DNA of 64,000 bases, from positions 551,672 through 615,671 of the forward strand of contig JAHDVF020000212.1 in NCBI GenBank assembly GCA_022606425.2, written 5' to 3'. Under the pieces are notes generated by a model, which searched no databases, had not been told where the DNA came from, and saw nothing but the letters and a program-made list of their open reading frames with translations. Source of the stretch: Lepidostoma basale. Lineage: Eukaryota; Arthropoda; Insecta; Trichoptera; Lepidostomatidae. The translations under genes and the position numbers were made by a program. Shown here one piece after another: positions 1-64,000 of this stretch (position 1 is the first letter of the stretch; every line of letters starts with the position of its first letter).

Positions 1-199
1 TTAAAAAAAATCTTTGACACAATGTTAAATCTTCTTTCAAAATTGATTATGGAATATCTCAGTATTAATAAAGTGAAAATATAGACACAGATTGAATAAA
101 GTGAAAATATAGACACATTGATGATGAAAGTTAATAATATTCTAAATCAAAACCCGATAAAGCAAAAATAAGAACAATGTATATGATTTTTTTTTTGTG

Positions 200-345
200 G
201 AATTTCATAAAAAACGAGTATTTTTCATGAATCAAATTTATGGTTTATATCGTGATGATGGTAGTGAAAAATCTCCGAAACATGGCGAGAAAAATAAACA
301 AAAAGTTGAAAAAACGTTCGAATTTTAGATAAATTATGCACACAG
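200..345. repeat. H1 foldback relic
   Basis: Degraded half of the H1 family (reference copy 6674-6933). A CCGAAACATGGCGAG piece at about 278-292 corresponds to the CGAAACATGTCGAG core of H1 and is followed by the usual AAAAATAAAC stretch. The opposite arm is missing. Confidence 0.6.
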
Positions 346-482
346 TAGAATTCCATAATGAAGATTTTTATGAATTAAAACGATATAAACTGTTTGGAGT
401 TTATATCGTTATCCCGATGATGAAGATGTAAAGCCTTTGAAACATGTCGAGAAAAATGAACTAAAATGTTTTAATTTATAAT
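345..482. repeat. H1 foldback copy, partial
   Basis: Contains the H1 order: GAATTAAAAC, TATATCGTTATCC, a CCGATGATGAAG core, CTTTGAAACATGTCGAG and AAAAATGAACT. Stem I of the hammerhead-like motif (TATCC against GAG) is weaker than in the reference copy. Confidence 0.65.
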
Positions 483-1290
483 GTTAGAATTCATTAAAAT
501 TTCGCCTGTAATTTCCACTTTGGATTAACTTCTTTAGACGTTCATTTAAAAATTCGTCATTTAATTCGATCTCACAAAACAGTTTACAAAATTAAATCCG
601 GAAACACTTGGCCCTCGCTTTGTGCCTATAAATAAACAAACACTCAACCAATCGATACGGCTGGCTGAAAATGGAACAAAACACGAAGCCACTCGGAGCA
701 GTAAAATTTTTACTCAGAGCTGATGCATGATTGTAAACTGTATCATAAAAGCGAAGAGATTACATACAATCCGCGAGAGAACGTTTCCAATCAATTAAGC
801 CAGATAAGAGGACCTGATACAGAATTCTTCGGCGCTATCGACTTATAGAGGCATCTCTTGCTGTATTACATGGAAAATATGATAATACTCTTTTTAAATT
901 TGTAATTTTCTCCAATTTATATGCAAATGACATCATTAATATCGAATGTAATTACTTGATAGTAGAATTGAAAACTGAATCATTCGAATACCTCGTCTAT
1001 ATTCGCCTTCAATAATTAGTGTTATTAATTTGAATTTGCATTTATATAACAATTAAATAACATAACACGCTTCTGCGAAAAGATTTTTTTCTTAATTTAA
1101 AACTATTTGTTAATTTAAAATAAACGTTTTTAATTTATTAATTTATATAACGAAATAAACAGACGTATCTCCAGGTATCACAAATTGACATCGATTAAAC
1201 AGTAACATTAATTTTGCCATTATTTTGTAACAAAATTATCATAATTAATAACTTCTTCTAAATTAAAAAAATAAAAAATATTTATATTTA
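483..1290. other. No gene seen
   Basis: AT-rich sequence with stops in all frames. The stretch about 585-850 has more balanced composition and no match to other parts of the window; I see no splice-flanked ORF in it. Confidence 0.5.
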
Positions 1291-1292
1291 TT

Positions 1293-1445
1293 AAAACGTA
1301 TGTTTTCTAGAAGATTAACGGTATTGAAGGGGAGTGACATGTATCGCCTTTTTATTAAACATGCTATATTGCCCCAGCAGGCCAAATATGATACTCCCAT
1401 AAAATATAAGAAAACTTTGAGATAACGGACATTTTCATCATCATG
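1293..1445. repeat. H3 foldback half
   Basis: AAAACGTATGTTTTCTAGAAG, then GGGAGTGACATGTATCGCC and a GCCAAATATGATACTCCC return arm, match the H3 family (reference 62095-62475). Badly eroded. Confidence 0.55.
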
Positions 1446-1527
1446 TTTTTATTTAATAATCCATATGAACTTTACATAATTGTCCTATAAATTCTAAATT
1501 AAACATAAAATACTTATTTTTTCTTCT

Positions 1528-1668
1528 ATATTCGCCATTACTTTGTGTTGCGGATTCATATTTGAATTACTTTTTGATAACTTTGTATCACAACACTTTT
1601 TTACACTTTTCAAGTGTAAAAAAGTGTTGTGATACAAAGTTATCAAAAAGTAATTCAAATAAAATACT
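1528..1668. repeat. H7-type perfect hairpin
   Basis: Arms 1561-1608 and 1612-1659 are perfectly complementary over 48 bp around a 3-nt loop (TTC). The outer sequence (TTTGAATTACTTTTTGATAA) matches the ends of the long H7 element at 42548-42965. The central part with the GAAAC motif is missing here, so it is a collapsed palindrome. Confidence 0.9.
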
Positions 1669-2025
1669 TATATCAAAATGTTGATGTAACTGATGAAATA
1701 AAATTTTAATGTAATAAACAAAGTTTTTTCCTTTTTGAGTTTATTTTTATCTATATCTTTCGAAGGTTTAATACCTTCATCATCGGAAGAACGATGTAAA
1801 CTAAACAAAAATATCTTTAACAAAATACAAAAATATAATTCTGTTCCCAGAAAAAAACAATTTACGTCTTCGTCTCTATTTAGATACAATTAATCCTTAT
1901 AAAACAAAAATATAAGTTTATATGTAACATAAGTGAATTTTTTTTTAATACATAAAATAATCGTCATAATGGAATTCCACATTGTTAACTAACGCCTTAT
2001 GTTTATCAGCAACAACAAAGAAAAT
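1669..2025. repeat. H1 foldback with foreign insert
   Basis: Left arm with TTTCGAAGGTTTAATACC and CATCATCGG (minus-strand H1 core) at about 1755-1790, H1 tail GGAATTCCACATTGTTAAC near 1970. Between them lies CGTCTTCGTCTCTATTTAGATACAATTAATCC, the end of the retroposon also found at 4696-4977 and 55447-55803. Confidence 0.65.
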
Positions 2026-3660: not shown

Positions 3661-3838
3661 GATGACCTTCGTGGCCGAGAGGTAAGTGCATTGAATGCCT
3701 CCCCGAAGGTTCCGGCTTCGATTCCCGGCGAGAATGTTGAGGAATCGAGAGAAATATGTCAGGAAAGAAAAGAGTGGCAGTCCATTTTTTCTGCCTACCC
3801 CTTCGGAGAGACGGCACGATGGTTAGTTATTTAGTTGA
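3661..3838 (+). mobile_element. SINE S1: tRNA head fused to LINE-A tail
   Basis: The head has an A box (TGGCCGAGAGG, 3672-3682) and a B box (GCTTCGATTCCC, about 3715-3726), the internal RNA polymerase III promoter of tRNA-derived SINEs. From about 3731 the sequence is the LINE-A 3' end (GAATGTTGAGGAATCGAGAG to GGTTAGTTATTTAG). This is the classic SINE layout that borrows the LINE reverse transcriptase by sharing its 3' end. Orientation is plus. Confidence 0.8.
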
Positions 3839-3926
3839 TTTTATTTTGTGAAAGTGACATGTTTCGATTCACTAGGGCATTTTCAAATGGCTTTTGATAA
3901 TACCCTGGCAAGGCGAAACATTAACT
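3839..3926. repeat. H3 foldback centre
   Basis: GTGACATGTTTCG ... GGCATTTTCAAATGGC and TTTGATAATACCCTGGCAAGGCGAAACA face each other. It is bracketed by SINE S1 (plus) and a LINE-A copy (minus), whose tails both point towards it. Confidence 0.65.
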
Positions 3927-4358
3927 AACTAGCTAACTAACCATCACGCCGTCTCCCCGGAGGAGTAGGCAGAAAGAATGGACTGCCACACTTTTCTTTC
4001 CTGACATATTTCTCTCGCTTCCTCAACATTCATACATCGTGTCATGCACGCGTGTCGATTTCTCTGACTCCTCACATAGCCATCACGCCGTCTCCCCGAA
4101 GGGGTAGGCAGAAAGAATGGAACGCTACACTTTTCTTTCCTGACATATTTCTCTCGCTTCCTCAACATTCATACATCGTGTCATGCACGCGTGTCGATTT
4201 CTCTGACTCCTCACATGGCCGACATTCAATATTTGATTTATTTGATCATGCCATTTTTCTCGGTCTTCCTCTATTTCTGGTTCCATTTACATCGTTTAAT
4301 ATATACTAGGTATATACTTTTTTTACCATTCCTTCATTAATTCTTTCCATGGGTTGTT
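3927..4358 (-). mobile_element. LINE-A 3' end with 139-bp tandem duplication
   Basis: Minus-strand LINE-A fragment. The terminal unit is present twice in tandem (3941-4079 and 4080-4218, about six differences seen). Because the unit is not a multiple of three, a continuous reading frame crosses the junction in a shifted frame before returning to RACMTRCMNVEEAREICQ and SGETA-stop. The inner part continues to the WHDQI and GNRNRGRP region up to about 4358. Confidence 0.85.
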
Positions 4359-4375
4359 TGTGTCTGTTTACGTAC

Positions 4376-6517: not shown

Positions 6518-6960
6518 TCTTCTTTTCTTCTTCCTTGTTGTAAACCTATGTGGTCTGTTCTCCAGAGTGTTGCCCCTCCTGTGAGGTAGACTCCTAACTG
6601 TCCTTCCATCTTTTAGGAGGTCCCCCACGAGAACGAGTCCCATGAGGCTGATTATGCAATGCAATATAGGGGACGAATTTTATGAATTAAAACACTGTTT
6701 TTTCCACTTTTGAGTTTATTTTTCTCGACATGTGTTGAAGGCTTACACCTTCATCATCGGGAGAACGATATAAACTTTATATCAGTTTATATCGTTCTCC
6801 CGATTATGAAGGTGTAAGCCTTCGAAACATGTCGAGAAAAATAATCTCAAAAGTGAAAAAAAACATTGTTTTAATTCATAAAATACGTTATTATGGAATT
6901 CCGCAATGTTAACGCCTTAAGTTTATCTAAAATCAATATAGGGGAGTCTAGTGGTGTCCA
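6518..6960 (-). repeat. LINE-C-like 3' end split by H1
   Basis: Minus strand reads RGTRSRGGPPKRWKDS with STSQ after one stop, ending in a (GAA)n-type tail near 6520. The continuation at 6934-6960 is separated by the nested H1 element. A second copy is at 38085-38290. Confidence 0.65.
6674..6933. mobile_element. H1 foldback element, reference copy
   Basis: Full 260-bp element flanked by the 12-bp duplication CAATATAGGGGA (6662-6673 and 6934-6945). Two inverted arms (about 6678-6780 and 6781-6890) are followed by a unique tail (GGAATTCCGCAATGTTAACG ... AAGTTTATCT). The plus-strand arm holds TTCTC, CCGATTA, T, GAAGG-loop-CCTTC, GAAAC, AT, GTC, GAGAA (6795-6837). The TTCTC and GAGAA parts pair. 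This is a hammerhead-like layout as in Penelope-type retroelement ends. The cleavage point would be after 6833. No protein is encoded. Confidence 0.8.
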
Positions 6961-8255
6961 TTGTTTTAACATGATAATTGAAATCAACTATTTAATTATG
7001 AAAATTTAGACGAACGTCAGGATGACGTTTTACTTGATGCATTGTTGGTTAATCAGAAGATTCTGCTCAACATTGCGGCGATGAGTTAAAGTTGCCGGTA
7101 AAAAATCCTTTGAATAACTACATATGATAGCTACCTTCAACTTATTTATTGTTTTTTGAACTATTATGTAAGACTCCATCTATATAAATAAAACTCAAAG
7201 TGTGTTATTGTGAAGACATTTTACTCGGCAAATAGGAAGCCGATCGAGCTGATTTCTTCAGGATTGATAAAATGGAACCTAGCGGTGGTTATAGGCATAA
7301 TTTTGTTAAGAATCGAGCTTTAATTAACTTTAGAAATTAATAAATTAATTGATTATTTTCGTAGCACAGGCGAATATAGACCTTAATAATCGAGCTCTGA
7401 GTCCAATTTTTAGAGTTCATATTTGCTTGGCATAGCCAGGAAGGGATTTATATTAAATAATGAATAAGAATGAAAACGTTAGATTTCTGTATGGATTTGT
7501 ATAAGTCAGGTGTGTATGGCTTGAAACAATACATCAAAATATAATATCTTCCATAAAATACTTATAAAAAAATACATTAGAAATGAAACAATACGTTAGC
7601 TTTCAATTTAGTAAAATATGCAAAACTACGAAAGCAAAAGTTCGAATGACTAATTATTGATCAATTTTCCAAGTGATTACGTACAGACGTTTGAATTTAT
7701 TCCCCTTACTGCATTGTCAGAGGCAGATTCCTTCTGCTAGTTAAGCTATACGTTGATGGTAATTTAATAGCAAAAAAATCAAAAACAGCAAAGAGTGTCG
7801 CTACCAACATTACGCTTGTAATCTGAATCAATCATAATGAAAATCCGTTCAACGTATTGATGTTTTATAAATCGACTATTAAGTGTCGCTGTTGGTACAC
7901 GTGCTGCTAGAAAGTACAGGAAGCCACCGGAACGCTGCGTACGATGCATTCAGATTTCTATTTTCTATGAAGATGGAGGACCAGCTTAGTGCATTTACAT
8001 TCACGAGACGAACGCCGTTATGGTTTTGGAAACGCATAATACCGTGAAGAGTGCAGATGGAATTTCAATGGAATCGCTTTTATCATTAATCGATTCAAGA
8101 TGTCGCTAAGTGGTAACAAACTTGCAATAAAAATGGTCAACTTTATGGCTACTGTGACGAAAATCAAAACAATTATTTTCATTAGACTTGAATGTCAAAA
8201 ATTATATAGAAATATATTTTTACATATTTGAGTCATAGTTTGACATATTTAAAAA
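6961..8255. other. No gene seen
   Basis: Longest unassigned stretch of the first 10 kb. 7690-8110 is moderately GC-balanced and unrepeated in the window. I see no splice-flanked ORF. Confidence 0.45.
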
Positions 8256-8259
8256 CAAA

Positions 8260-8425
8260 ATTAAATAGTTTTCTCTTAATATAAACCACTTCATTGACTT
8301 AATATAACTAAACAAAACTGTATAGCACCTTACTATTTTGTGTATAGCCCTGAGGAAGTCGCTACAGATTGAAAACGGTTGGCGCTACTAACTTAATAAA
8401 GTGGTTTATATTAAGTGAAAAGTAT
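8260..8425. mobile_element. H8 foldback with hammerhead-like motif
   Basis: Arms CTTAATATAAACCACTT (8275-8291) and its exact complement (8399-8415). Plus-strand centre: TATAGCC, CTGAGGA, AGTCGCTACAGATT, GAAAAC, GGTT, GGCGCTA (8343-8387). Flanks TAGCC and GGCGCTA can pair with a 2-nt bulge. Only one copy in the window. Confidence 0.65.
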
Positions 8426-8689
8426 TTAATTTTATTTTCAAAAAATATATGATACGTATTACTTGAAGATTTAAATTAAATAAAATTGATATCTGAAGAA
8501 AACGAGGTGTTCTGATAGTCGCTATAAAGTTGGGGAACGTCGTCTGTGATGGTATGGTTATGTGAGCAAGAAGAACAATTGCTACATTGTCCACAAGGCC
8601 CAGCAACTTAAAAATTAAACAAGCGGACCAGGTCGGGCTCCTGCAACTTTGATATCCACAGTCAAGATTTATTTGAAGGCGCTGCGACT

Positions 8690-14335: not shown

Positions 14336-14805
14336 TTAATCAGTCGAACACAAAAATAATTAAGCAGCATAATATATAATAGTAAAATACTTTCTTATCG
14401 GATGTGAGAAAAGGCGTGGAAGATTATTCGCAGATGAATGCATGAAACACGTCTTCACTGGGTACTTTGTACGTACTTACAACTACACATGCGATCATCG
14501 ATGAATGGATCGACTTGTGAATGAATCGAAGAATTCCAGCCAATAATTGCTCAGCTCATTGAATCAAGTAGTAAACTTTTCCAGCCAACCGGACAATTGG
14601 TGCGGTCAAATTAATGCGCATAAAAATAAATGAACGCAGAAAACATAAACGAAAGAAAGTTTATTGAATAATGAATTTGGAAGAAATCAGCAGCTCTTAA
14701 CGCGAAGTTTTAAATAGTAAAAAAAACTGACCTACTTCTTATATCTAAAAAAATATTTAAATTTACTGTTTGTTTAACTATGATGAAAAACTCTACATTT
14801 AATAA
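14336..14805. other. No gene seen
   Basis: Unique-looking AT-rich sequence; 14400-14620 is somewhat less AT-rich. No exon signal recognised. Confidence 0.4.
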
Positions 14806-14960
14806 TCAATACGTATGCAAATGTTTGTTTTCTGAAAGTTTTATTATATTATATGGAAATGACATCTGAATCAATGTTTTATATTTGATAATGCATTAGC
14901 AATGCGAAACATTTCATTCCCATGTAATATAATAAAACTCTAAAAAAACAGATGTTAAAT
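14806..14960. repeat. H3 foldback
   Basis: Arms TTTTATTATATTATATGGAAATGACAT (about 14838) and CATTTCATTCCCATGTAATA (about 14909), with TTTGATAATGCATTAGCAATGCGAAACAT between them: H3 core with a GCATT / AATGC stem II. Confidence 0.75.
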
Positions 14961-19424: not shown

Positions 19425-19560
19425 TGTTTAACAACCAATTTCTGAGAGGGTTCAAAAACGCGGGGTTACAAAAACAGTTTGTTTTTGTCACCCTGAAGAA
19501 GCTCCGACGGGCGCGAAACCGGTTGGTTTTGAAACCGATGAAAATAAAGCATTTAACTGT
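19425..19560. repeat. H12 hammerhead-like element
   Basis: Plus strand: GTTTTTGTCACC, CTGAAGA, AGCTCCGACGGGCGC, GAAACC, GGTT, GGTTTTGAAAC (19481-19535). ACC/GGT and GTTT/AAAC can pair around an internal loop. The flanking CAACCAATTT / GGTTGGTTTT are loosely inverted. Single copy here. Confidence 0.5.
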
Positions 19561-19700
19561 TAAAATTTAAAACACTGTTACATAACACAATTTCTTTTTA
19601 TTTACTGATTGTCACGACAGCTGTTTCGCCAACCGATGTTGGCATCATCAGGTGTTACAATAAACTAAAGTTACAAAGGGATAACCTTAATTTTACAAAC

Positions 19701-22349
19701 CATGGTGGTATTGTCACCATCGCCCGGCAAGGCTTGCATATTGAAAGAATTAAAATCGGAGTTTTCGAGACGTTTGAACATCTTGGGTGTCGCGTGTCAT
19801 CGGGAAGATCATCTTTCACCCTTATCACTATTTACCGACCAGGATCTAAATCAACCTGCGTTAAATTTTACGAAGAATTCTCGGAACTGCTACAATTCGC
19901 GGCCAGCCTCTCTGAACATTGGATGATTGTTGGAGACATCAATATCCGATTAGAGAGAACCTCATCGTCTAGTGATAAATTCCTAGACATGATGGAATGC
20001 TATGGGTCCAAGCAATGGGTTACCGAGCCAACACATACCGCAGGTGGATTACTGGATATCCTCATCTCCAACAAAAATGCTGTTAACACTCCGGCAAGTG
20101 TTATAGATATTGGACTCTCGGACCACAAAATGATTCGTACGGAGATCCCTTTCCATCCACCACGACCCGTGTTTCAAACTTTCACTTCACGTACATGGCG
20201 CTCTTTCAATTTCGAAAAATTTGAAAGAGACTTGATGAACTCACATGTTTGTGAAAAATATAATAACAATACCCTCGAAATGTCATTAGATGAATTAGTT
20301 CAAACCTACTACAATGTTTTTACTTTTCTTCTCGACAAGCATGCTCCACATTCGACAAAAACACTCCGGGTGCGAGTGTCTAATGCATGGTTTGATGAAG
20401 AATGTCGTAGAAACAAGAGACTAATGCGTAGGTTTGAACGTATGTACCGAAACACAGGTCTAAGCTCTTCAAGAGAGGCCTGGGTGAGATCGCAGAATTC
20501 TTTTAGAGACCTGATCAAGAAGAAAAGATCGGAGTGCTGGAAATGTAAAATTGAATCGGAAAAGGAAAATCCCCGACATCTATGGAATTCCGTTAAATCA
20601 GTACTCGGAAATAATCAACAAGAAAAGGCCTCTACCAAGTTATCTCCTCAGGACTTCGCCCAATTCTTTGAAGATAAAATCGCTGTGATTCGTGCAACGA
20701 CTTCATCTACAACACCACCAACTTTCACGACATATGAGGGAAAACTTCTAACTAAATTTAATATCACAACACCTCAAGAAGTGATTAAACTTATCTTAAA
20801 CGCACCTAATAAACAGTGTTCGCTTGATCCGATTCCGACATGGCTTCTCAAGAGATGCTGTCACCATGTTGCTCCATTTTTAGTCAAAATTTTTAACAAA
20901 TCTCTTCTAACAGGACAAGTCCCCTTTTTGCTCAAGAAAGCTATTGTTTCTCCCATATTAAAAAAACCTCAACTAGATTCCGAAAATCTTAGTAACTTCC
21001 GGCCCGTCTCAAATCTACCTTTCATCTCTAAAGTTCTTGAAAAAATTGTAGCCTCCCAAATTTCTAATCACCTTTCGACAAATAATATTTTGTCTAAATT
21101 ACAATCCGCCTACAGACGTTTCCATTCAACGGAGACGGGATTGCTTAGAGTCATGTCAGATTTAGTACTGGCAAACGAATCGGGCAAATTGGCACTGCTC
21201 TCCCTTCTGGACATGAGCGCTGCGTTTGACACAATTGATCACTCATATCTTATCCAACGATTAGCGATCACGTATGGTTTTAGAGGTAATGCCATAGACT
21301 GGCTAAATTCATATCTGTCGGATCGTTCACAAGCTGTGCAGCTAGCAGGTAAAAAATCCTCATTTACTAATATCCAATCTGGTGTGCCACAAGGCTCTGT
21401 TTTAGGACCCCTTTTATTTATCATGTTTACAAATGACGTTGCCAAAATAATAGAATCTTTTGGCCTCCTCTCACATTGCTATGCTGATGATCAGCAACTT
21501 TATTTTTTCTGCAACCCTGATGACACCAAACATCTTACGTCAACAACTGTCAACTGCATTGATGCCATATCCAGATGGATGGCATCAAACAAACTTAAAC
21601 TAAATCCATCCAAAACGGAATTTCTCTGGACTTCTTCCGCAAAGCGTCAACATCTTATCGATCATTCCTCAATTTCAACAGCTGACAATGATATCGTTCC
21701 CAAAAACTCCACAAAGCTTCTTGGTGTTTATCTTGACGCAAATCTGTCTCTAAAATCCCAAATTAATAACACGGTCAGCGCTAGTTTCTTCCACCTAAGA
21801 CGATTAAAATCCGTCAAAAGGAGTATTCCCCACGACACTTTCAAAACTCTTGTAAATTCCTTCGTTGTGTCACGACTTGATTATTGTAATGGAATTTATG
21901 CAAACATTCCAAAACAACAAATAAACAAACTTCAATCTGCGTTCAATGCAGCAGCAAGGCTCATTAAAGGCATTCCAAAAAAGTCTCATATAACACAACA
22001 TCTCAAAGAACTTCACTGGCTTAAAAGTCCAGAAAGAATCCAGTATAAACTCTGCTGGACAGTCTTCAAAGCGCTACATGGAATGGCACCAAGTTATATA
22101 TCTGAACTCTGTATAACGGACAGCCTAAATTCACGGAAATCCACACTTCGCTCGGCGAACTCCTCAGCAATAGGAAGATTAGTTGAGCCGAAGCGTTGCC
22201 CCAGTACAAATTTCGGGGATCGAGCGTTCGCGGTAGCCGGTCCATCAGCTTGGAACAATCTCCCTTCACACCTTAGATGCATAAATGATCCGACAGATTT
22301 CAGATCTAAATTGAAAACCCATCTTTTTCATATTTCATACCCAATTTAA
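19701..22349 (+). CDS. L2/CR1-like retrotransposon ORF2, 5' truncated, open
   Basis: About 880 codons with no stop. The reading frame is already open upstream of 19701, and no real start exists because the copy lacks its 5' end. Numbering from 19734: the C-terminal half of the APE-type endonuclease comes first (VGDINIRL near 66, LDILIS near 107, SDHKMI near 128). The reverse transcriptase follows (FRPVSNLPFISKVLEK near 424, AFDTIDH near 498, GVPQGSVLGPL near 550, catalytic CYADD at 582-586). A C-terminal domain ends FRSKLKTHLFHISYPI-stop. It would nick target DNA and prime reverse transcription of its own RNA. The family was recognised from the RT motif set; the exact clade within the CR1/L2 group is not certain. 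Absence of stops over 2.6 kb implies a recent insertion, but the copy cannot be autonomous. Confidence 0.93.
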   Translation, partial: HGGIVTIARQGLHIERIKIGVFETFEHLGCRVSSGRSSFTLITIYRPGSKSTCVKFYEEFSELLQFAASLSEHWMIVGDINIRLERTSSSSDKFLDMMECYGSKQWVTEPTHTAGGLLDILISNKNAVNTPASVIDIGLSDHKMIRTEIPFHPPRPVFQTFTSRTWRSFNFEKFERDLMNSHVCEKYNNNTLEMSLDELVQTYYNVFTFLLDKHAPHSTKTLRVRVSNAWFDEECRRNKRLMRRFERMYRNTGLSSSREAWVRSQNSFRDLIKKKRSECWKCKIESEKENPRHLWNSVKSVLGNNQQEKASTKLSPQDFAQFFEDKIAVIRATTSSTTPPTFTTYEGKLLTKFNITTPQEVIKLILNAPNKQCSLDPIPTWLLKRCCHHVAPFLVKIFNKSLLTGQVPFLLKKAIVSPILKKPQLDSENLSNFRPVSNLPFISKVLEKIVASQISNHLSTNNILSKLQSAYRRFHSTETGLLRVMSDLVLANESGKLALLSLLDMSAAFDTIDHSYLIQRLAITYGFRGNAIDWLNSYLSDRSQAVQLAGKKSSFTNIQSGVPQGSVLGPLLFIMFTNDVAKIIESFGLLSHCYADDQQLYFFCNPDDTKHLTSTTVNCIDAISRWMASNKLKLNPSKTEFLWTSSAKRQHLIDHSSISTADNDIVPKNSTKLLGVYLDANLSLKSQINNTVSASFFHLRRLKSVKRSIPHDTFKTLVNSFVVSRLDYCNGIYANIPKQQINKLQSAFNAAARLIKGIPKKSHITQHLKELHWLKSPERIQYKLCWTVFKALHGMAPSYISELCITDSLNSRKSTLRSANSSAIGRLVEPKRCPSTNFGDRAFAVAGPSAWNNLPSHLRCINDPTDFRSKLKTHLFHISYPI

Positions 22350-22518
22350 ACATTTATACTTTGTTCTACTATACTTTCAAACCGATCGTTTTTTTTAAGC
22401 GGTCACATATAGATTTTTAAGATTTAAAACACGTCTTAATGCGCCCTTGAGGTGATTACATCACAAAAACGGCGCTTTAAAAGTTAGCATATTATTATTA
22501 TTTATTATTATTATTAAA
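19701..22518 (+). mobile_element. L2/CR1-like LINE insertion
   Basis: ORF2 plus a short 3' UTR (CGCCCTTGAGGTGATTACAT, GGCGCTTTAAAAG) ending in (ATT)n at 22493-22516. Microsatellite-like 3' ends without poly-A are typical of CR1/L2 elements. Inserted into the centre of an H2 foldback. No clear TSD, also typical of the group. Confidence 0.88.
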
Positions 22519-22706
22519 TGAAAAGACTTACTTTTTATAGGTCAAAAAAGTTTTTTGCCCTATAAATAGTAAGTCAAATTTGGCAAGTTTTTTTTTGGCA
22601 AGTAATTGGCATTTGGAAAATAACATCGGTTGGCGAAACAGCTCTCGCGACACTCAGTAAATAATTTTTATTTTTTAAAAAAAAAAGACTAACATCAAGG
22701 ATTCAT

Positions 22707-22862: not shown

Positions 22863-22985
22863 ATATATAACAGTGTTATAAATTTTAACAGTAATAATGT
22901 TGAAGTATCATAGTGTTTCGGGGCAAAACAATGGACTATTCAAAGCATTTAAATTATTTGTTTGAATAAAATTATATTATAATAT

Positions 22986-28265: not shown

Positions 28266-28293
28266 CTATACAATTTTTTATTATTATTATACA

Positions 28294-42489: not shown

Positions 42490-42975
42490 GGTTATAAACA
42501 AATTTCTTCTATATTCGCCTTCACTTTGTGTTGCGAATTCACATTTGAATTACTTTTTGATAACTTTGTATTATCACAACATTTTCTTAAATTGTTCACA
42601 GACATGTTTCGGGACACAGAAGGCCCTTCTTCAGCGTGTACAATTTTAACAGCTCAATGGGACAAAATCGTTACTTATATACTAAATTAAATTAAATTAA
42701 TAGTATAATTAATTTAACTTCCAGTCCGATATTAGATTTATTTCCCCTGCCTCATTGTTCTGCCAAAAATCCCCATTAACACTGCTACTTGGAATCATCC
42801 CCACCCCTCCTTTGCTATTTTAATTTTATTTAGTATATGTAACGATTTTGTCCCATTGAGCTGTTAAAATTGTACACGCTGAAGAAGGGCCTTCTGTGTC
42901 CCGAAACATGTCTGTGAACAATTTAAGAAAGTGTTGTGATAATACAAAGTTATCAAAAAGTAATTAATATATAAA
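42490..42975. mobile_element. H7 foldback, 127-bp arms
   Basis: Arms 42548-42674 and 42839-42965 are complementary over 127 bp with one mismatch seen. A 164-bp spacer is unrelated to the arms. The right arm carries, on the plus strand, TTGTACACG, CTGAAGA, AGGGCCTTCTGTGTCCC, GAAAC, AT, GTC, TGTGAACAA (42870-42921). The first and last parts pair over nine positions with one A-A mismatch and one G-U, directly next to the core. The left arm has the same motif on the minus strand. Confidence 0.88.
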
Positions 42976-43506
42976 CAAATTCTTTGAAGAAATAGGTACG
43001 TTATATTTTTAAGCTTTATAAAATAAATAACAGACTACTGAAAGATTCAATAAAATTACGTGATTTCATTATATGAAAAAAAATTATTGTAGCATTTTTG
43101 ATGCGGTATTCTGAGTTTATAACTATTCATTATTCATATAAGACAAAATATTTTGTAACAAATAAGACATTTTGGTTATCACAAAACCGTTATTTATCTA
43201 TATAATTAGTTTTCGAATACTCAAATTACATAACCCAATAGATTTACATTCATGTAAAATGGTGCGCAAAAAAAAAATTAACCTCGATCGTTCGTCTCTC
43301 TTTGAAAATCATTAATAATATTTACGATATGAAACCTAAAAATTTCATTACTATAGCGTATTGACAGAGAAGCTTAAAAACGAGACATAATTTTAGAACA
43401 CAAAAAATTCTTCAAGCACTTAACTCGACCCCTCTGAGAGTCTAGGACACTTAACGCGGAGAAAAACGTACGAATGGTGGTTTAAAAATTCTCAAAAGAT
43501 CCTTAC
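42976..43506. other. No gene seen
   Basis: AT-rich; no repeat recognised. Confidence 0.4.
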
Positions 43507-43849: not shown

Positions 43850-44145
43850 TATTTTAGAAAAACTTAAGGCATTAACACTGGAATTCTCTAATGAATATTT
43901 TACTATGAATTAAAACACTGTTTTTTTTTCACTTTTGAGTTTTTTCTCGACACGTTTCGAAGGCTACTTCATCGGGAGAACGATATAAAACTGATAAATT
44001 TTGCGTTTGTTTAAACGATATAAAACTATTAAATGTTTTATATCGTTCTCCCGATGATGAAGGTGTAGGTAGCCTTCGAAACATATCGAGAAAAATAAAC
44101 TCAACAGTGAGAGATAGTGTTTTAATTCTTAAAAAAAACGATAAA
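43850..44145. mobile_element. H1 foldback with extra centre
   Basis: Tail first (GGCATTAACACTGGAATTCT), then left arm and, at 44041-44092, the plus-strand motif CGTTCTCCCGATGATGAAGG, TAGCCTTCGAAACATATCGAG. The centre is enlarged by GATAAATTTTGCGTTTGTTT. Confidence 0.75.
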
Positions 44146-44854
44146 ATGTTTTTAAATCTATAATAAATACTTTGCATTCACTGTGAGCACAATGAATATA
44201 ATATTATTATATTTAAAAAATATTTTTTCAAAGACCAAATTTTGAATCTTAGTAATTTATCGAGTCGTTAAAAAATAGGATATACTGTACATTAATGGCA
44301 TAATTTAATTGTAACTTTTAATAGCAATATTTTCCAACACTCATTTAAATTAAGAAAGGTAAACAGCCCATTCCCATAAAATATAATTAAACCTCTAGAA
44401 AAGAGATGTTTTATTCGTATTAATAAATAAACTGATGTGAGTGGAAAAAAAAAATAGTCCATTGTTTTGGCCGAAGCACTATGATACTTTAACATTATAA
44501 ACTGTTAAATTATAAAACTCTGTTTTTATAGAATAAATTGTCTTGTCTTCTTATTTATCAGAGGATAATATGCAATAAATAACGAGAGGCGTAATAAATA
44601 AATAAATAATTAAATGATGATGTGATAGTTCAGTGTAGAGATTTTAATATATTAAGTTTCAACACTGAGGAAGGGCTTTTGTGTCCCGATACATGTTTGT
44701 GAAAAGTACATAAAATGTCTTTCCATTTCAAATATAATAAAACTCCAAGAAGACAGACGTTTTCATTCATATGAATAAGAAGAAACAATAATCCATTGTT
44801 TTGGCGGAAACACTATGATATTTCAACATTATTAACTGTTTAAATAAAAACACT
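44146..44854. other. No gene; scraps of H7, H3 and H2
   Basis: 44640-44715 (ACACTGAGGAAGGGCTTTTG, CCCGATACATGTTTGTGAA) is an H7-type motif. 44740-44770 is an H3 arm. 44455-44500 and 44780-44840 are H2 tails (CCATTGTTTTGGC ... ACACTATGATA). Confidence 0.5.
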
Positions 44855-45335
44855 CATTGAATATCACAATTAATTATATTTATTTTGGAATTGTCGAGAC
44901 AGCTATTTCACTAAACGATGTTAGCATCATCAGTGTTACAATCAACCGATGTTGATTGTAACATAGTTATAGTTAGTTCATTGTTTTGACCGAAACACTA
45001 TGATATGAGTACTTCAACATTATGATTGTGAAAATTTAAAACACTGTTATAATATCACAATTTGCTTTTATTCACTGAGAGTGCCGTACAATAAACTCAC
45101 TAGTTTATTGTAACACCTGAAGATGTCAACATCGGTTGGCGAAACAGCTGTCGCGACACTCTCAGTGAATAAAAGCAAATTGTGATATTATAACAGTGTT
45201 AATTTTAACAGTAATAGTTATAATTGATTGTAAAACCTGATGATGCTAACATCGGTTAGCGAAACAGCTGTCTCGACAATTCCAAAAGAAATATAATCAA
45301 TTGCTATATTCTATAACAGTGTTTTTATTTAAACA
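44855..45335. mobile_element. H2 foldback nested in another H2
   Basis: Outer H2: left arm 44870-44945 (GAATTGTCGAGACAGCTATTTC) and right arm 45228-45330 (CCTGATGATGCTAACATCGG, TTAGCGAAACAGCTGTCTCG, ACAATTCC). Inner H2, about 44965-45215, has its tail at the left and a full motif at 45112-45165 (CCTGAAGATGTCAACATCGG, TTGGCGAAACAGCTGTCGCG). ATAGTTATAGTT and ATAGTTATAATT border the inner copy. Confidence 0.8.
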
Positions 45336-45934
45336 GTTCATAGAAGGAACAAACAAACGCACTATTTTTTAAACATTTCAATATTTATTTTGCTTCATAT
45401 AACACTTAAATAATGATATTAAATCATTTTCACTTTTGTTTGAGTCGTATAAGCACTAGCACTCAAAGAAAATTAAATTAAATATTTTCAAGTTAGTCGA
45501 AAATCTGGCTCCTGGGACAGTGATACTGTGCGCAGGTACGCGAGCGACGCAGGCGCTTGGAGGGGGTCTGCAACCGGACTGAGTGCAGTCGGACGGAGCG
45601 AAGACAGGCGGTAATCTTCGGCGGTGTTTGCTCGCCGTCCCAGTGCGGGCGATTCTTGTTTACAGCAGTCCCTTGGGACGTCGAGCCATCAGCGCAACGG
45701 CCCAACAAAAAGTTTCTTCAACACTATACGCAAGGTTATTCCAAACAATACATAAAAGCGGAAAAAGCATGATTCATTTTGTAAACTGAAATGCAAAGAT
45801 TATTTTCTGGAAAAGGCGTTATTTTAAATAATGAAAATAAAATTAAAAATCTTTTATTTTTTATTATTTTTTTTATGTACACAACAGGTCGTTTGGACCC
45901 AATTACAGTATACAATTTTTTATTTTGTAGCTAT
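45336..45934. other. GC-rich non-repeat island; gene end possible
   Basis: 45490-45720 is CpG-containing and GC-rich, unlike any repeat here. On the minus strand an open frame runs to a stop at about 45493, and an AATAAA follows at about 45385-45390, so a terminal exon is conceivable. On the plus strand GCGCAG|GTACGC at 45530 resembles a donor. I cannot decide between exon, promoter or neither. Confidence 0.25.
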
Positions 45935-46108
45935 TATATTGATTCTCGTGACATGTGATAGGTAGCCAATCTATGGCCATTTTACTGTCACGTGAATTCT
46001 ACACCAGACCAAAGACAGTGTGACAATCACACTGCCATCGCCGGGAATCGAACCCGGGACCTTCGGCATGGAAGTCAGAGCTCGTAACCACTCTGCCACG
46101 AAGGTCGT
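45935..46108 (-). mobile_element. SINE S3, full tRNA head
   Basis: On the minus strand: CCTTCGTGGCAGAGTGGTTA (A box) and CCCGGGTTCGATTCCCGGCG (B box), then GATTGTCACACTGTC, GAATTCACGTGACAGTAAAA and CACATGTCACGAGAATCAAT. The B box is a perfect tRNA type. Best copy of the S2/S3 family. Confidence 0.88.
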
Positions 46109-46600: not shown

Positions 46601-46619
46601 AAAACAAATTATTTTCATG

Positions 46620-46926
46620 ATAATCGAATGATTTTACTGAAATCTCTTGATGGAAGTTCATTTTGAATAATAATTCAATAAAACGATGTTTTTTTTTACT
46701 ACGTCCACTTTTGTCTTTTTTTCGACATCGACCGGTTTCGCCAGGCTCGCTGGCATCGACCGACTGGACCAGTCTGTCGATGCCATCGAGCCTGGCGAGA
46801 CCGGTCACTGTCGTTATAAAGACAAAAAAGGAAGTAGTTAAAAAAAACATCGTTTTACTTAATTATGAATTATTTTCATTATTAACAATGAAGTTCATTT
46901 TTTAACAATGAACTTCTACAATCTGA
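46620..46926. mobile_element. H4 foldback, complete
   Basis: 46676-46860. Outer arms AATAAAACGATGTTTTTTTT and AAAAAAAACATCGTTTTACT; inner arms with ATCGACCGGTTTCGCCAGGC and GAGCCTGGCGAGACCGGTCA. Motif in both arms: TCGATGCCA, loop, TGGCGARACCGGTC. The core is CUGUCGA rather than CUGAWGA. Flanks GATGGAAGTTCATTTTGAAT and its complement lie outside. Confidence 0.85.
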
Positions 46927-50179: not shown

Positions 50180-50830
50180 AATTGCTTTCATTGTTCCTTG
50201 AACAATGATGCAAAACTCCATAAATAATTTATATGTATCAAAATGTCTGTTTTGAAAAAGTTTTATTTTATTATACTCGTACATTATTTTTATGATATTG
50301 GGATGTTTCATCTTAAGGCATTACAGCCATATTTGTGTATCCTTTAGCAAGGCGTTACAAGTCATTCCCATAAATTTTTATAAAACTTTAAAGTACAGAT
50401 TTTATAAATTATTTTATTTGAAGTTTTACATCATTGTCCAAGAAACATTTAATAACACAAAGATATGTGAAAATACCCTAACAAGGCAACACATCACTCA
50501 GGTAAAATATAATAAAGCATCTAGAAAATTAATATCTTCTGTATTATTTTATACTGATGACAGATATAGTATTTAAATTTTACAGAATATAAATAAAACA
50601 TAAAATATTCATTTCTACGATTTATTGTTTCTTGAACAATGATCTAAAACTCCATATTAAATAATTAATACGGATGAAAACGTTGTCTAGAAGTTATATT
50701 ATATTTTATGGGAATAACAGGTTTCACGTGACATGATACATGTCATTCCCATAAAATAAAACAAAACTTCTACAAAATAATATGTTTTTATCCGAATTAA
50801 TTATTTGTATGATATTATTACATTTGAATA
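50180..50830. repeat. Cluster of H3 foldback pieces
   Basis: Four arms: 50185-50290, 50330-50460, 50500-50560 and 50610-50810. The last pair (TTTTATGGGAATAACAGGTTTCACG and CATGTCATTCCCATAAAATA) still folds. TTGTTTCTTGAACAATGATC tails recur. Confidence 0.7.
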
Positions 50831-56272: not shown

Positions 56273-57079
56273 TAGCTAAGAAAAATAAACGAACTAGTTA
56301 GTAAAAAAAAATGTATTTTCATTCATTGTGATGTGACCACGATGTTACGTGATATTATAATACTCGTATATTACTTTTTTTATTTATTATATCTTAATTT
56401 TATTTTTTAATTCCAGTACTATAAGTATTTTAACTCTTAAATATTATGTATACCTTTTTTTTTACTTAGTTTAACTTCAATCTTGTTACACCCTATCATT
56501 TGTTAATTGTTAACTATTATTTTATATTTGTGGTAGCATGTAAATGACCTTATTTTAATTATTCTAAATGTTTTTTTTATATATATGTTATTGATCGCTG
56601 TATGTTACCCTTAATGAATAAATAAATAAATTAAGTAAAAACTCACATTACTTCTCTAATTTTAACTCTAAAACTCATATTATGCGAATATTTAAAAAAT
56701 TTGAGTTACGATCTTTCCGTATATAGGTCCCGATTTGTTAGAGTAAACACCGTAACAGTCGTCGCGGTCTCTAGCCATTGCAGTAATTTATAATTACTTT
56801 AATATTCACTATATGCCTCGACCGGCTCCAGATTACATCTCCCCATCATAATCACCAGGAAGGAATTACAGCAAGCCGACTACTTGGTGCAGTCTCTCGC
56901 GGTATGCTCTATTGTAGGACTTATGTTACACCTAACTGGAAATTATAACCTCAACGCATTACACATGCCGTTACTGGATGCTAGCGTCTTGATTATCATA
57001 GTGGAAAAGTGTTGTGGAAAACTACCTACGAGGCTTGACCTACAAGTCTTGATGTATATGTATAAATTATTGATGTTGT
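56273..57079. other. No gene assigned
   Basis: 56700-57050 is less AT-rich (GTAACAGTCGTCGCGGTCTC, CCTCGACCGGCTCCAGATTA). A 71-codon ORF at 56884-57099 has no recognisable features. Confidence 0.4.
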
Positions 57080-57300
57080 TGATTGAAATTTCTTGGTAGA
57101 AGTTCATTGTAAATAATGAAAATAAAAAAATAAAATTTTAAGAATTTTTCTATGTTTATTTTTAGTGTAAAATCTACTTATTAATTTACTTATTAATTTA
57201 CTACCAAAAGATGGTCGAAGACGAAAATTAATAAGTAGATTTTACACTAAAAATAAACATAGAAAAATTCTTCAATTTTTATTTTTTATTTTCATTATTG
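57080..57300. mobile_element. H5-related foldback with 47-bp perfect arms
   Basis: Arms 57140-57186 and 57226-57272 are fully complementary. The 39-nt loop holds ACCAAAAGATGGTCGAAGACG, a reduced H5 core without GAAAC. The left flank GAAATTTCTTGGTAGAAGTTC is the H4/H5 tail. Confidence 0.85.
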
Positions 57301-59050: not shown

Positions 59051-61210
59051 CACACTGGAGCCGAATTAAGAATTGTCGGAATAAATTATTTTTGTGGTCT
59101 TTTAAATATGAAATAAATAAAACAATGTAAATAAATTGTTATAAAGTAATTTCAAAAAGAAAAACAGGATTTTTTAAATTTTTATTCACTATCTGAAGAA
59201 TTTTCGGCTTCGTTTTCACTGATCGTGGATTGCGTGGAAACGTCGGACGTTATAATATTAGGTGGAGCCAATAGATCTAAAGTACCCTTTTCAAAATTTA
59301 CATCTTTCTTTACAGATACTTCTCGCAAGCTGCTAATAAGAGGGTCCGAAGATATTAAAATTAAATTTAATACATCTTCATTAGTTTTTATACGTGACAT
59401 TTTTCGCGAGAAGCATTCTCTGTATCTTTTGAACTCTTTGTTTCTTGCTTCTTGGGCCTCTTCACTTAGCTGGCCTATAGGTAATAAAGCATGCTTTTTT
59501 ATTTCTGGGCCGTGAATTAAAACTTTGTGAATAGTTGGAGGCATCGGGTACCACGCATATTTTCCCGCAAAGAGTTTATGGGTCTACAGTATCGTGTCTT
59601 TCATTTTGACAAAAAACTATTTTATTTTGTAATATTAAATTGTCCGATATCAATCTTAAATGTACTTAAGACGATATAAAAATATTATTATCCTTAGAAT
59701 TTGGATCGCTACTAAACTTCTGTTTGTATTCTGACTGTGCAGATCCGTCGAAGCACCATTTGCATATTAAGGTTATATTTTTTATATTTTCTGATTTCTG
59801 AACTTCTAAAATTTCTTTATGAGCTTCCAAAAGACGAGTGGCAGTATGATCAAGTAAAATTTGCAATTTAATCTCAGCAAAAGTATCTGTGACTGCAATG
59901 CTTTCCTTTGGTGGATAACATTCGCTTTTCGCCTGTTGTATTTTTTTGCAAGATGGAAATAGGAATTTGTCATGTTCTCGAATTAAATTGTATTGATGTT
60001 TGGTGAGTTTTACTTCAATAAACATCAAAAGAGCTTCTTTTTCTGTAAGCTGCTAACCTTTTAGAGATGTTAATTTTCTTGTATGCATTTTTGTATGAGG
60101 CAGCTGTGGATAAAGTTGTCGTAACTTCCTTCAAAACTTTGGAGGCATCCACTTGACCAGCAGCTCGCAAAGTCACCTGTACTGCAAATGTTCATTCCTT
60201 AAGAGAGTGCTTTGATCTCAAAGATTTAATCTTTTGGCGTTTAGCTCTATCACAAGATTCTTCAAAATTTGTTTGAGGGCGACCCACTTTTTTACTTAAA
60301 ACAATAGAAAAGTTATGGAAACCTATTGAAGTATTTAGGCAGTCATTATTAAAAACCAAATATCTGTTCTCTTTTCTGATAGCCTTTTGCCACTTCTTCT
60401 TAAAATCAGACACAAAAAATGAAATTGTTTTATGAAGGCTTGGTAATTGGTCTTTTAGACATTTAGTACGTATTTCGACAAATTCCTTCAAACATGATAC
60501 TTGATCAGCCAATTTAACGTAGCCAGATTGTCTCATTTGATCAAATAAGGTACGTCTACTTATAAAAATATTAGTTGTACCTGATCCTGAAAGAAAAAAT
60601 AATAATTGAAATTAATTTAAAATAACTCATAAATGCTTTCTTTTTTATTATGTTTCCACATCCTGGACAAAAGTGACCTTTAAGTGAAAAAGCGCAAATA
60701 TGCGCAAAATGTTTTTTATATTTCCTTAAGAACAATGAATACGTAAGCAAATAAGCCCAAAATTGCAGACATGATATGAACTGATATCAACTAAAACTTT
60801 ACATATAAAATCAATAAACTAAAAAAAAGCAAATATTTTCCCCAGTAATGTAAATACCCCTTTAAAATATTACAATTCAGAATATATCAAAGATATTTAA
60901 AAAAAAAATATGTACCAACATGTGGGTGATAATGCCATATTGAAATAATAACAAAATTTGGAAGCACTATGAAGTATTTGCCACTCGTAGAAGGTGACTT
61001 TTCGTATTGAAATCGCAGACGGCAAAAGCTTCGCCTATGACGGACAAGTTTCGACTGGAACAGGGATAAAAGTTGACTTGCACCATGACTTTAGAGTACT
61101 GAGCAGTATGCCAGGTATATTTAACTATCAATTCCAGGAATTATTTGTGACCTAATGTTATTTTTAAAAAAGGGGTTTATTCGCACAATTCCTGGATCGG
61201 CCCCAGTGTG
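59051..61210 (-). mobile_element. Transib DNA transposon, copy 2 (internally deleted)
   Basis: 2160 bp. Ends CACACTGGAGCC (left) and, inverted, CACACTGGGGCC (right), flanked by CGTCG at 59046-59050 and 61211-61215. Same family as copy 1, but a separate lineage by its protein sequence and shorter because of an internal deletion. Confidence 0.92.
59182..60536 (-). pseudogene. Transib transposase relic
   Basis: Minus strand in three blocks. 60536-60192 (VSCLKEFVEIRTKCLKDQLP, SKKVGRPQTNFEESCDRAKR). 60028-59666 (LTKHQYNLIREHDKFLFPSC, ICKWCFDGSAQSEYKQKF with the first catalytic Asp at 59749-59747). 59544-59182 (MPPTIHKVLIHGPEIKK, GQLSEEAQEARNKEFKRYRE with the catalytic Glu at 59451-59449, acidic C-terminus). 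The segment with the second Asp and the zinc-type residues is deleted between the last two blocks, so it cannot be active. Confidence 0.88.
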
Positions 61211-61215
61211 CGTCG

Positions 61216-61447: not shown

Positions 61448-61483
<36 letters not shown>

Positions 61484-61832: not shown

Positions 61833-61952
61833 ACTAAAAACATTTATTTTTAAAATTGAAGTTGAATTATCCGAAGAAGGCTTAAAAAAAATGGATAAAA
61901 AAAAATCTGTTTTAATTGTTTGTTTCTTAAACAATGATATAAAACTCCATAT

Positions 61953-62055
61953 TCAAACTTGGACTTGGATCTTCTGGCGTACAGATGTTCAGCTCATATG
62001 GCTATTTCTCTTACGTCTGATGGGAACATTGTTGGAAGTAACCATCAGGTTAATT
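61953..62055 (+). repeat. Copy of the 48956-49186 repeat
   Basis: ACTTGGACTTGGATCTTCTG, GGCGTACAGATGTTCAGCTC, GGGAACATTGTTGGAAGTAA. Plus strand here. Confidence 0.65.
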
Positions 62056-62094
62056 AATATAAATGAAAATATGATATGAAATACTTATTGTTAT

Positions 62095-62475
62095 TTATCG
62101 GAATTAATATTTGATAATGCCTTAGCAGGATGAAACATGCCATTCCCATAAATTATAATACAACTTCTAGAAAACGGATGTTTTCATTAATAATAATTAG
62201 TGTTTTAATTCGTTAAAAAAGCAATAATACAAGTTTATTGTCATACAGAATTACGTACATTGAGAATAAATACATATTATGAATGAAAACGGTTTTCTAG
62301 AAGTTTTACGATATTTTATGGGAATGAAAGGTAAGACAAGAAGACAGGACATTTGATAATGCCTTAACATGACGAAACATGTCATTTCCATAAAATATAA
62401 TAAAAATTCTAGATAACAAACGTTTTAAAATGATTGATTATGGAGTTTAACATCATTGTTCAAGAAACAATAAAT
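62095..62475. mobile_element. H3 foldback pair
   Basis: TTTGATAATGCCTTAGCAGG-ATGAAACATGCCATTCCC (62109) and, after a second start (GAATGAAAACGGTTTTCTAG, TTTTATGGGAATG), TTTGATAATGCCTTAACATG-ACGAAACATGTCATTTCC (62352). Arms 62283-62325 and 62380-62420 fold. The tail GGAGTTTAACATCATTGTTC follows. Confidence 0.78.
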
Positions 62476-63196
62476 AAAGTAAAATAAGATTTTATTTTAA
62501 GTTAACTATGAGTTTCTAGAAGTTTATGTAATATTTTTCAAAACAAAGTTATTTCCCAATCCCAGTTCAATTCACCGTCACAAACAGATCATTCGACTTA
62601 AACCACGAGGAAGAGGAAGATGAAGACTTATATTGTAAATTAATTTTGATGTTAACGCATCACATATATATAAAATATCGTTTAAGAGTAAACATTGATA
62701 TTAAGTTATCTGAAAAGATTTATGTTGGTAGCGAGATGCAACAGATAAGAGAGGACATTCGTAAAGTCATTGTATTTATGTTATGGGGGTCAAAATCGTA
62801 TTACCCCTGGGTTAGTCTATCTGTGTGGTCCAGAGCCGAGTCCATTAATAATTATTACATCTGACAGATACAGATGTGAATGCGCCTCTAAGATGGCCCT
62901 ATAGAATAAAATTTGATTGACGCAAGTTGAATTAAAGTCGTTCGTATATGAAAAATAGTAGGTACATAGCGTATTTTAGTTACGTACTTGTTTATAATTT
63001 ATCATATTCCAAGTACATGGACTTAATACCTCCATTGGATAAGCATTTATACATGTATTTCTCACTCGGTAGTTACAATTGAAAAGATTGGTTTGCAGCA
63101 TAGTTTAACATTTTTGTTGGTTAATGTGGTAGTTTCCCGTTGCTATCCATTTAATATTGTATAATATCATAATAATCATTTGATCATAATATACAT
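62476..63196. other. No gene seen
   Basis: AT-rich, no repeat recognised. A 72-codon ORF at 62646-62864 looks like chance. Confidence 0.4.
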
Positions 63197-63420
63197 TATA
63201 GCACTCTGAAGCACAGCGCAGAGACGACGCCGCTGAGAGGAGGAGGAGAAGAAAGGAGAGACCACTGGGAGACGGTGACGGCTCCACTACAGGCGCCTTC
63301 CCCTGCCCCAGATGCCCCAAAATATGTGGGTCCAGGATCGGGCTCTTCAGTCACATGACCCACAACCGTGAAGGACAGTCTTCCTCGAACACGAGGGACA
63401 GCCGATGATGATGATGACAT
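63197..63420 (+). pseudogene. LINE C-terminus with zinc-finger-like end
   Basis: Plus strand: HSEAQRRDDAAERRRRRKER, PLGDGDGSTTGAF, CPRCPKICGSRIGLFSHMTH, NREGQSSSNTRDSR-stop, (GATGAT)n. CPRC...GLFSHMTH is the Cys-Cys-His-His type finger that closes ORF2 in several non-LTR families. Clean frame, no upstream part. Confidence 0.8.
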
Positions 63421-63534
63421 TATATCATATTTTAATAATGCTTACATGGTTAAAAAATTTAAACGAAGACTTATATAAATCATAAAATATACAAAAATAG
63501 AAATACTTTAATAAGTCAAATATATCCACTAAAA

Positions 63535-63665
63535 TGTGTAAAAAATATTTATATTTTCTTCTATATTCGCTATAACTTTGTGTTGCGGATTAATTTAACA
63601 ATGTTTATTTTAACTCTTTGAGTGCTAAGGCATTAACACTGTGGAATTCCATAGTAATATACTTA
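63535..63665. repeat. H7 and H1 end fragments
   Basis: TTCTTCTATATTCGCTATAA and CTTTGTGTTGCGGATTAATT (outer H7, as at 1520 and 42505), then GGCATTAACACTGTGGAATT (H1 tail). Confidence 0.6.
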
Positions 63666-63698
63666 GGAAATTGAAAATAACTTTGTTTAATCCACAAT

Positions 63699-64000
63699 AT
63701 AAGAAGTGAATGCGGTGCGAATGATGGTGTCATGAACAAAATAATGAAAGGATCATTAAGATGGTTTGGACATATGGAAAGAATGAATGAAAAAAGAATG
63801 GTAAAAAAATTATATGTTAATGATGTAAATGGTTCCAGAAATAGAGGAAGACCAAGGAAAACGTGGCACGATCAAATAAATCAAATATTGAATGTCGGCC
63901 ATGTGAGGAGTCAGAGAAATCGACGCGCGTGCATGACACGATGTATGAATGTTGAGGAAGCGAGAGAAATATGTCAGTAAAGAAAGTTGTGGCAGTCCAT
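63699..64000 (+). mobile_element. LINE-A, cut by the window end
   Basis: Open frame: SECGANDGVMNKIMKGSLRW, MNEKRMVKKLYVNDVNGSRN, KTWHDQINQILNVGHVRSQR, CMTRCMNVEEAREICQ-stop (TAA by substitution), GTGGCAGTCCAT at the border. Close to 23738-24140. Confidence 0.87.

Follow-up and report, generated by a model that had tools for sequence, protein, structure and literature searches.

What kind of element has left so many short foldbacks at this locus, and how did their arms come to lie head to head? The locus is a stretch of 64,000 nucleotides from the trichopteran insect Lepidostoma basale (assembly GCA_022606425.2, contig JAHDVF020000212.1, positions 551,672 to 615,671), here called the window, with a G+C content of 0.31-0.40 in 4-kb steps. 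The foldbacks are very probably short insertions of several families of Penelope-like retroelements (PLEs), and we class them as copies of PLE pseudo-long terminal repeats (pseudo-LTRs) because their anatomy closely matches that of published PLEs, which are cited throughout from parts of the papers concerned. A sequence-only reading of the window had suggested a large family of hammerhead-carrying, palindromic non-autonomous elements. Its account of short palindromic elements in several families with different arms stands, but a new class is not needed, as the anatomy is that of Penelope-like pseudo-LTRs (PMC3846280, PMC11167929). The kind of element is already known, and the less expected parts are the restriction of a coding-like tail to one side of a foldback (the one-tail rule) and the variants of the motif core.

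The hammerhead-like motif and its families

The window holds 53 pairs of short inverted repeats no more than 400 nt apart, and a blastn self-comparison yields 42 opposite-strand matches that meet the distance rule. In many foldback arms the parts come in one order: a core, one A or T and a stem II are followed by GAAAC, a weak stem III formed by a short palindromic stretch, and GTC or GTT. Seven sites emerge when the window is scanned for core, stem II and GAAAC...GT[ACT], against a mean of 0.25 in 20 first-order Markov sequences, and these sites are related repeats rather than independent events; with a strict CTGANGA core there are five sites against a mean of 0.05. One scan site, 26202 on the minus strand, falls in none of the arm groups described below. 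A looser scan returned mostly noise and served for candidate finding only. Two exact patterns sought in viral contigs gave no match. Under looser criteria 26 arms were parsed by eye and fall into seven groups, A, B, C, D, E1, E2 and F. Because the arm at 35266, of group E1, bears an E-type tail, E1 and E2 are joined as family E, which gives six element families; for the E1 foldback 28268-28463 the link to E is a single 16-nt match (E 0.005). The scan and the parsed arms agree with the earlier claim that one motif order recurs across families; nine families were then named, and six are counted here.

The core differs by family. Its positions are given in the usual hammerhead numbering. In family D it is CTGATGA in 5 of 6 arms (44898-44933, minus; 45237-45272, plus, CTGATGA; 45117-45152, plus, in a nested element; 40131-40166, plus; 40081-40116, minus, decayed; 19616-19651, minus, CTGATGA). 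Family B has CTGAAGA in 2 of 3 arms, among them 42601-42634 (minus, left arm, CTGAAGA) and 42879-42912 (plus, right arm), and family F has CTGAAGA (19493-19524, plus) and CTGAGGA (8350-8380, plus, weak stem II). The cores of B, D and F are canonical but for one extra nucleotide, and helix III is very short. De la Pena and Flores reportedly described in 2001, to go by the title, a viroid hammerhead with an extra core nucleotide. In family A the core is CCGATGA in 2 of 5 arms and the remainder differ by one change; motifs lie at 44051-44087 (plus, CCGATGA), 6800-6833 (plus, CCGATTA), 38651-38684 (plus, right arm) and 38591-38624 (minus, left arm). Family C has TTGATAA in 4 of 4 arms (62353-62383, 62111-62141 and 14885-14915, all plus, and 38804-38834, minus). 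Group E1 has CAGAAGA in 2 of 3 arms (35266-35297, plus, CAGAAGA; 28373-28404, plus, TAGAAGA; 28328-28359, minus), and group E2 has CTGTCGA in 2 of 3 (46774-46806, plus, CTGTCGA; 46730-46762, minus, CGGTCGA; and 26032-26064, plus, in a single pseudo-LTR). All 26 arms have A or T at the position that links the core to stem II, where the parse presupposed one nucleotide.

Outside the motif the families have little in common: blastn between half-elements of different families (E ≤ 1) gives short matches only. The best is between A and E2 (22 nt, 91%, E 5e-5) and lies in the leader, and one opposite-strand match joins D and E3 (37 nt, 78%, E 6e-4). The convergence of unrelated arms that had been proposed is better read as shared descent from PLE pseudo-LTRs with fast-changing arms.

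Stem II is kept across families by covariation, as the sequence-only reading had held, and stem I covaries too. A MAFFT alignment took in 24 of the 26 arms, and RNAalifold on these 24 rows predicts stem II unprompted, with changes on both sides in four of its five pairs. As a six-pair stem it is paired in 85.0% of 127 cells and has a covariation score of 0.665, and none of 500 shuffles is as high in either respect; slid versions score 0.041-0.298. The number of pairs with changes on both sides and the number of pair types are unremarkable, with 407 and 117 of 500 shuffles as high, respectively. Because the arms within one family are related, whole 3' strands were also swapped between the seven groups in all 5040 orders, the true order included. 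The observed order forms 4.07 of 5 pairs in stem II (2.65 under permutation) and 2.97 of 5 in stem I (1.99 under permutation), and for either stem one order of 5040 reaches the observed value. Stem I taken over 8 positions is reached by 2 of 5040 orders, and a four-position stem II, in a parse with arm E2c offset by one base, by 3 of 5040. Stem I gives the cleaner of the two results because the arms were chosen partly on stem II pairing, whereas stem I was not used. Stem I of family D pairs poorly unless bulged (1.3 of 5), and stem II of family F is poor (2.5 of 5). Four arms folded singly show no unusual stability (z -0.39, -1.77, -1.21 and -1.57), and the folded family C arm does not adopt a hammerhead shape.

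It is possible, if rather doubtful, that the motif is a former ribozyme that now acts as a structural binding site for a PLE protein, so that the core drifts while the stems are kept. Core positions 3, 4, 6 and 8 do vary by family with stem II retained, and ribozyme mutants of an anole PLE still insert in vitro (PMC11167929). Against such a site, G5 and A9 are constant in 26/26 arms and GAA is present in 23/26, in a parse that was anchored on these positions, and family C alters positions 3 and 8 jointly, as pairing would demand. We suggest tentatively, from the arm sequences and as one proposal with the two starts of reverse transcription discussed below, that family C may carry a natural hammerhead in which a U3-A8 pair replaces C3-G8 (UUGAUAA). 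The core variants allow the hammerhead positions that a PLE needs to be tested.

Tails, leaders and flanking repeats

Each foldback is best seen as two head-to-head pseudo-LTRs, most of them with the motif. In families A-E a start codon, decayed in some copies, and a short open stretch follow on one side; the tail-like stretch of family F is putative. Within a family the end point of the tail is common to the copies and the flanks beyond it differ. The tails translate as MEFHSVNAL in A, MNPQHKVMANIEE in B, MEFYIIVQETIN in C, MLKYHSVSAKTMDY in D and MNFHQEIS in E. In eight elements bounded by a flanking repeat, among which the D-44830 repeat scores only 8, the tail including its start codon measures 38, 39, 41, 41, 42, 42, 43 and 45 nt. 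The leader from the predicted cleavage site to the start codon is 50-68 nt in 8/8 tail-side arms of five families, and in 3 of these 8 the codon has decayed (GTG, TTG and ATA). Changes at the three codon positions of the tails number 1, 1, 3 in B, 6, 9, 15 in C, 1, 4, 6 in D and 8, 4, 10 in E. As a test of coding selection these counts are weak and give no more than a hint of it, since the tails are short and family A is off the pattern.

Four copies have exact flanking repeats of 12-13 bp. These are the family A foldback 6674-6933 (plus; right tail, ATG 6893; 12-bp duplications 6662-6673 and 6934-6945), the family B foldbacks 1518-1658 (minus; left tail, ATG 1559; 13-bp duplications 1505-1517 and 1659-1671) and 42505-42969 (minus; arms 154 nt apart; left tail, GTG 42542; 12-bp duplications 42493-42504 and 42970-42981), and the family E foldback 46619-46867 (minus; left tail, ATG 46661; 12-bp duplications 46607-46618 and 46868-46879). 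Family E also includes 34563-34724 (minus; left tail, ATG 34604; 9-bp duplications), whose centre lies downstream of the expected motif site and whose fold point differs from that of 46619-46867. Further members are 57063-57298 (minus; left tail, ATG 57107; 10-bp duplications), 35198-35392 (plus; right tail, codon decayed to ATA) and the E1 foldback 28268-28463 (strand not assigned), in which no tail was identified. In family A, a foldback at 38538-38781 (plus; right tail, ATG 38744; left edge approximate) lies, by eye, inside a family C pseudo-LTR, another at 43852-44135 (minus) has a left tail and no convincing duplication, and a pseudo-LTR pair at 1716-2009 (plus) has a right tail. Family C is represented by 62267-62479 (plus; right tail, ATG 62440), by 61916-62196, 14762-14955 and 50617-50807 (all minus, left tail; the last with no convincing duplication) and by 50187-50454 (strand not assigned), which is tailed on both sides. 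The family F foldback 8208-8437 (minus) has a putative left tail (ATG 8246) and imperfect 13-bp duplications. The 5' part of the pseudo-LTR is itself palindromic in some copies.

The family D foldback 44789-45341 (minus; left tail, ATG 44829) has imperfect duplications, AGAAGAAACAA and AGAAGGAACAA, with a score of 8, and holds a second D foldback at about 44962-45223. In this nested foldback (45021-45216) one arm lacks, by eye, nearly exactly the hammerhead-like stretch of the other, as if reverse transcription had skipped it. The foldback 40063-40245 (plus) has a right tail with a codon decayed to TTG, and its left arm end is unclassable. At 19535-22937 (plus), family D arms (19535-19667, minus; 22621-22670, plus) and a tail (22854-22937, plus) lie around the frame of a long interspersed nuclear element (LINE; 19557-22349, plus, RVT_1), which may have been inserted in the D element or captured by it. 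Many relatives of this frame also carry PF03372, an endonuclease family. An origin of the foldbacks from LINE 3' ends was considered because D arms flank a LINE, and was dropped, as the tails end past the start codon rather than at a LINE end.

Automatic pairing relied on family profiles taken from the window's own sequence and on a rule that sought head-to-head order. It gave 21 foldbacks, with the two nested D foldbacks merged as one and 28268-28463 left outside for want of a profile; 16 of the 21 have exactly one tail, a single foldback has two, another has none, and three are unclassed. The exception to the one-tail rule is the two-tailed family C foldback named above. In the tail-less foldback, 38759-38937, the left arm is apparently interrupted by an A element, and a C tail lies at 38481. 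One tail in at least 16 of 18 classable foldbacks has a probability of 0.0007 under even odds. A further 25 pseudo-LTR pieces were left unpaired. In total, 69 merged matches (E ≤ 0.01) cover 6762 of 64,000 bases, or 10.6% of the window, a figure to which the F and E1 profiles contribute matches to their own foldbacks only.

The best direct flank repeat scores at least 9 in 8/15 foldbacks and in 3/210 mismatched control pairs, and at least 12 in 4/15 foldbacks, where no control of 210 reaches 11. The length of the duplication varies, at about 9-13 bp. Short, palindromic, duplication-flanked elements would also be expected of miniature inverted-repeat transposable elements (MITEs), that is, DNA transposons with terminal inverted repeats that are moved by a transposase and carry the motif incidentally. 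We regard this as hardly credible. The two ends are unlike in 16/21 foldbacks, one with a coding-like tail and the other stopping near the start codon; the duplication is not of fixed length; the fold point shifts within family E; and covariation at the RNA level would be unexpected.

Animal retrozymes, non-autonomous elements that carry a hammerhead and spread in the form of circular RNAs, are also very unlikely to account for these copies. The type I hammerhead-like motif, the weak stem (helix) III and the small size are shared with them, and retrozyme RNAs of about 170-400 nt have been described in animals (PMC7229834). However, those described sit in short tandem repeats, and the parts of that paper drawn on here mention neither inverted arms nor an ORF (open reading frame) start, whereas the copies in the window lie head to head and end inside the start of an ORF. 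In none of 12 Tandem Repeats Finder rows does the repeat unit amount to a whole element.

Several observations weigh against the view that the foldbacks are hammerhead-bearing PLE pseudo-LTRs. No PLE reverse transcriptase or GIY-YIG frame was found by Pfam in 20 of the 127 ORFs of at least 75 aa, and a six-frame search with a few motifs gave no PLE-like site in the window. Rfam hammerhead models have no match in the window even at E ≤ 10; nothing reaches the gathering cutoff, and what appears at E ≤ 10 is sub-threshold and mostly microRNA models on hairpins. The minimal form of the motif may fall below the reach of these models. Four of seven groups deviate from CUGANGA, A and E1 at position 4, E2 at 6, and C at 3 and 8 together, and two tailed foldbacks (1518-1658 and 34563-34724) have no motif. 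Relative to the start codon, tails end at +28 to +42 and tail-less arms at -22 to +9, but these are alignment ends, accurate to a few bases, the tail ends are capped by profiles cut near +40 so that longer matches could not show, and the limits of the two classes were chosen after the arm ends had been viewed. Flank repeats score 5 to 8 in 7/15 foldbacks. Among the eight that score at least 9, the duplication of D-45021 is doubtful, as its repeat may be that of the host D element; by eye the 9-bp ATAGTTATA fits better. Finally, the changes in family A tails, 16, 14 and 12 by codon position, show no coding pattern.

Origin of the head-to-head arms

If the foldbacks are PLE insertions, each arm would be a pseudo-LTR made up of a short 5' part, in most cases the motif, the 50-68 nt leader and the start codon of a missing ORF. 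Cleavage at the motif would cut the transcript back to this 5' leader, perhaps only with the help of a protein. Copying of RNA to DNA would begin at fixed places near the start codon: the tailed arm would start about 40 nt into the ORF, and the other arm close to the codon. Since no more of the ORF than its first codons lies upstream of such a start site, the product would be a pseudo-LTR without the ORF; the copies in the window stop ahead of the ORF body. The two arms would join head to head at their 5' ends, and insertion would create the duplications of about 9-13 bp.

The one-tail rule suggests two starts of reverse transcription per insertion. As a tentative proposal, stated jointly with the U3-A8 pairing of family C, a foldback in any of the six families may result from two separate starts, one per nicked target strand, at about -5 and +40 from the codon, and the two complementary DNAs would be joined at the pseudo-LTR 5' end. 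It is also quite possible, though short of probable, that PLE foldbacks form by self-priming on antisense RNA, or that an RNA which already holds both arms is copied as a unit. Self-priming is the proposal printed in the Discussion of PMC3846280, family A copies have, by eye, a partly common centre, and one foldback is tailed on both sides. With self-priming, however, the copied-back arm should bear the tail too, and 16/18 classable foldbacks bear one only; the varying fold points of family E speak against both routes.

In the literature examined, the formation of inverted PLE pseudo-LTRs is unsettled, and the one-tail rule offers a simple way to test self-priming against two starts. If two starts prove true, PLE inverted repeats would be explained without self-priming. 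Searches directed at inverted pseudo-LTRs, tails and priming turned up, in the parts of the mostly non-subscription literature consulted, no proposal that PLE inverted repeats arise from two starts, one on each strand, and we make no claim of priority.

Neighbouring sequences and known systems

Other sequences in the window include two broken frames, 31212-32588 and 59182-60611 (minus), within which 31215-31784 and 59185-59583 weakly match the Pfam RAG1 recombinase family. Both matches (E 0.0001 and 0.0019) fall short of the curated cutoff, and the other frames at these places have no such match. Of 246 candidates, 175 are relatives of 31215-31784, with aphid, butterfly and cockroach proteins among the matches listed. 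A nearly perfect 54-nt palindrome lies at 25009-25062. At 3941-4220 a 139-bp unit stands in two tandem copies that are 95% alike, and this overlaps a foldback at 3732-4031 in which a family C motif survives in decayed form. A tRNA-like stretch at 46033-46105 (minus; 26.3 bits against an Rfam cutoff of 29) is perhaps the head of a short interspersed nuclear element.

The sequence-only reading had proposed, as a check, a comparison with Penelope pseudo-LTR hammerheads of other insects. Set against published rotifer and anole PLEs, the foldbacks agree in the motif upstream of the start codon, the tail, the head-to-head arms and the duplications. Penelope elements of the rotifer Adineta vaga have two direct pseudo-LTRs and an adjacent inverted one, with an optional 31-bp tail on one inverted copy; the pseudo-LTR takes in 12 aa from the start of the ORF, palindromes lie at its 5' end, and duplications are 8-10 bp (PMC3846280). 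The foldbacks thus resemble Pen2a_Av and others in their head-to-head pseudo-LTRs, 5' palindrome, one-sided tail, covered ORF start and duplications. In the rotifer elements the pseudo-LTRs are mostly separated by an ORF or by captured host DNA, and solo pseudo-LTRs also occur, whereas the window has mostly bare pairs. The word 'hammerhead' is absent from the main text of that paper.

In the anole Poseidon element PAc (PMC11167929) a hammerhead, which needs protein, lies near the ORF start, as here. Reverse transcription starts inside the RNA at two adjacent sites that bound a tail, and both target strands are cut and extended. The PAc cut site lies 26 bp into the ORF, while the predicted cut in the window precedes the start codon by 50-68 nt, and PAc reverse transcription starts 111-118 bp inside the ORF, while the copies here end at about +40. 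Hammerhead motifs, usually minimal, are held by all available PLE sequences according to PMC6155905.

In the monarch butterfly, penelope-1_dPle has 9901 copies, mostly short, and 3029 of 3566 Penelope fragments in the table of PMC8848866 are 5' fragments without a 3' part. The words 'hammerhead' and 'inverted' are absent from the main text of that paper, and the missing 3' parts are ascribed to deletion. Should the short pairs of pseudo-LTRs prove to be primary products, the many insect PLE copies without a 3' part may partly be products of insertion rather than of deletion. In abundance and in the shortness of most copies, the PLE families of the window resemble this insect element.

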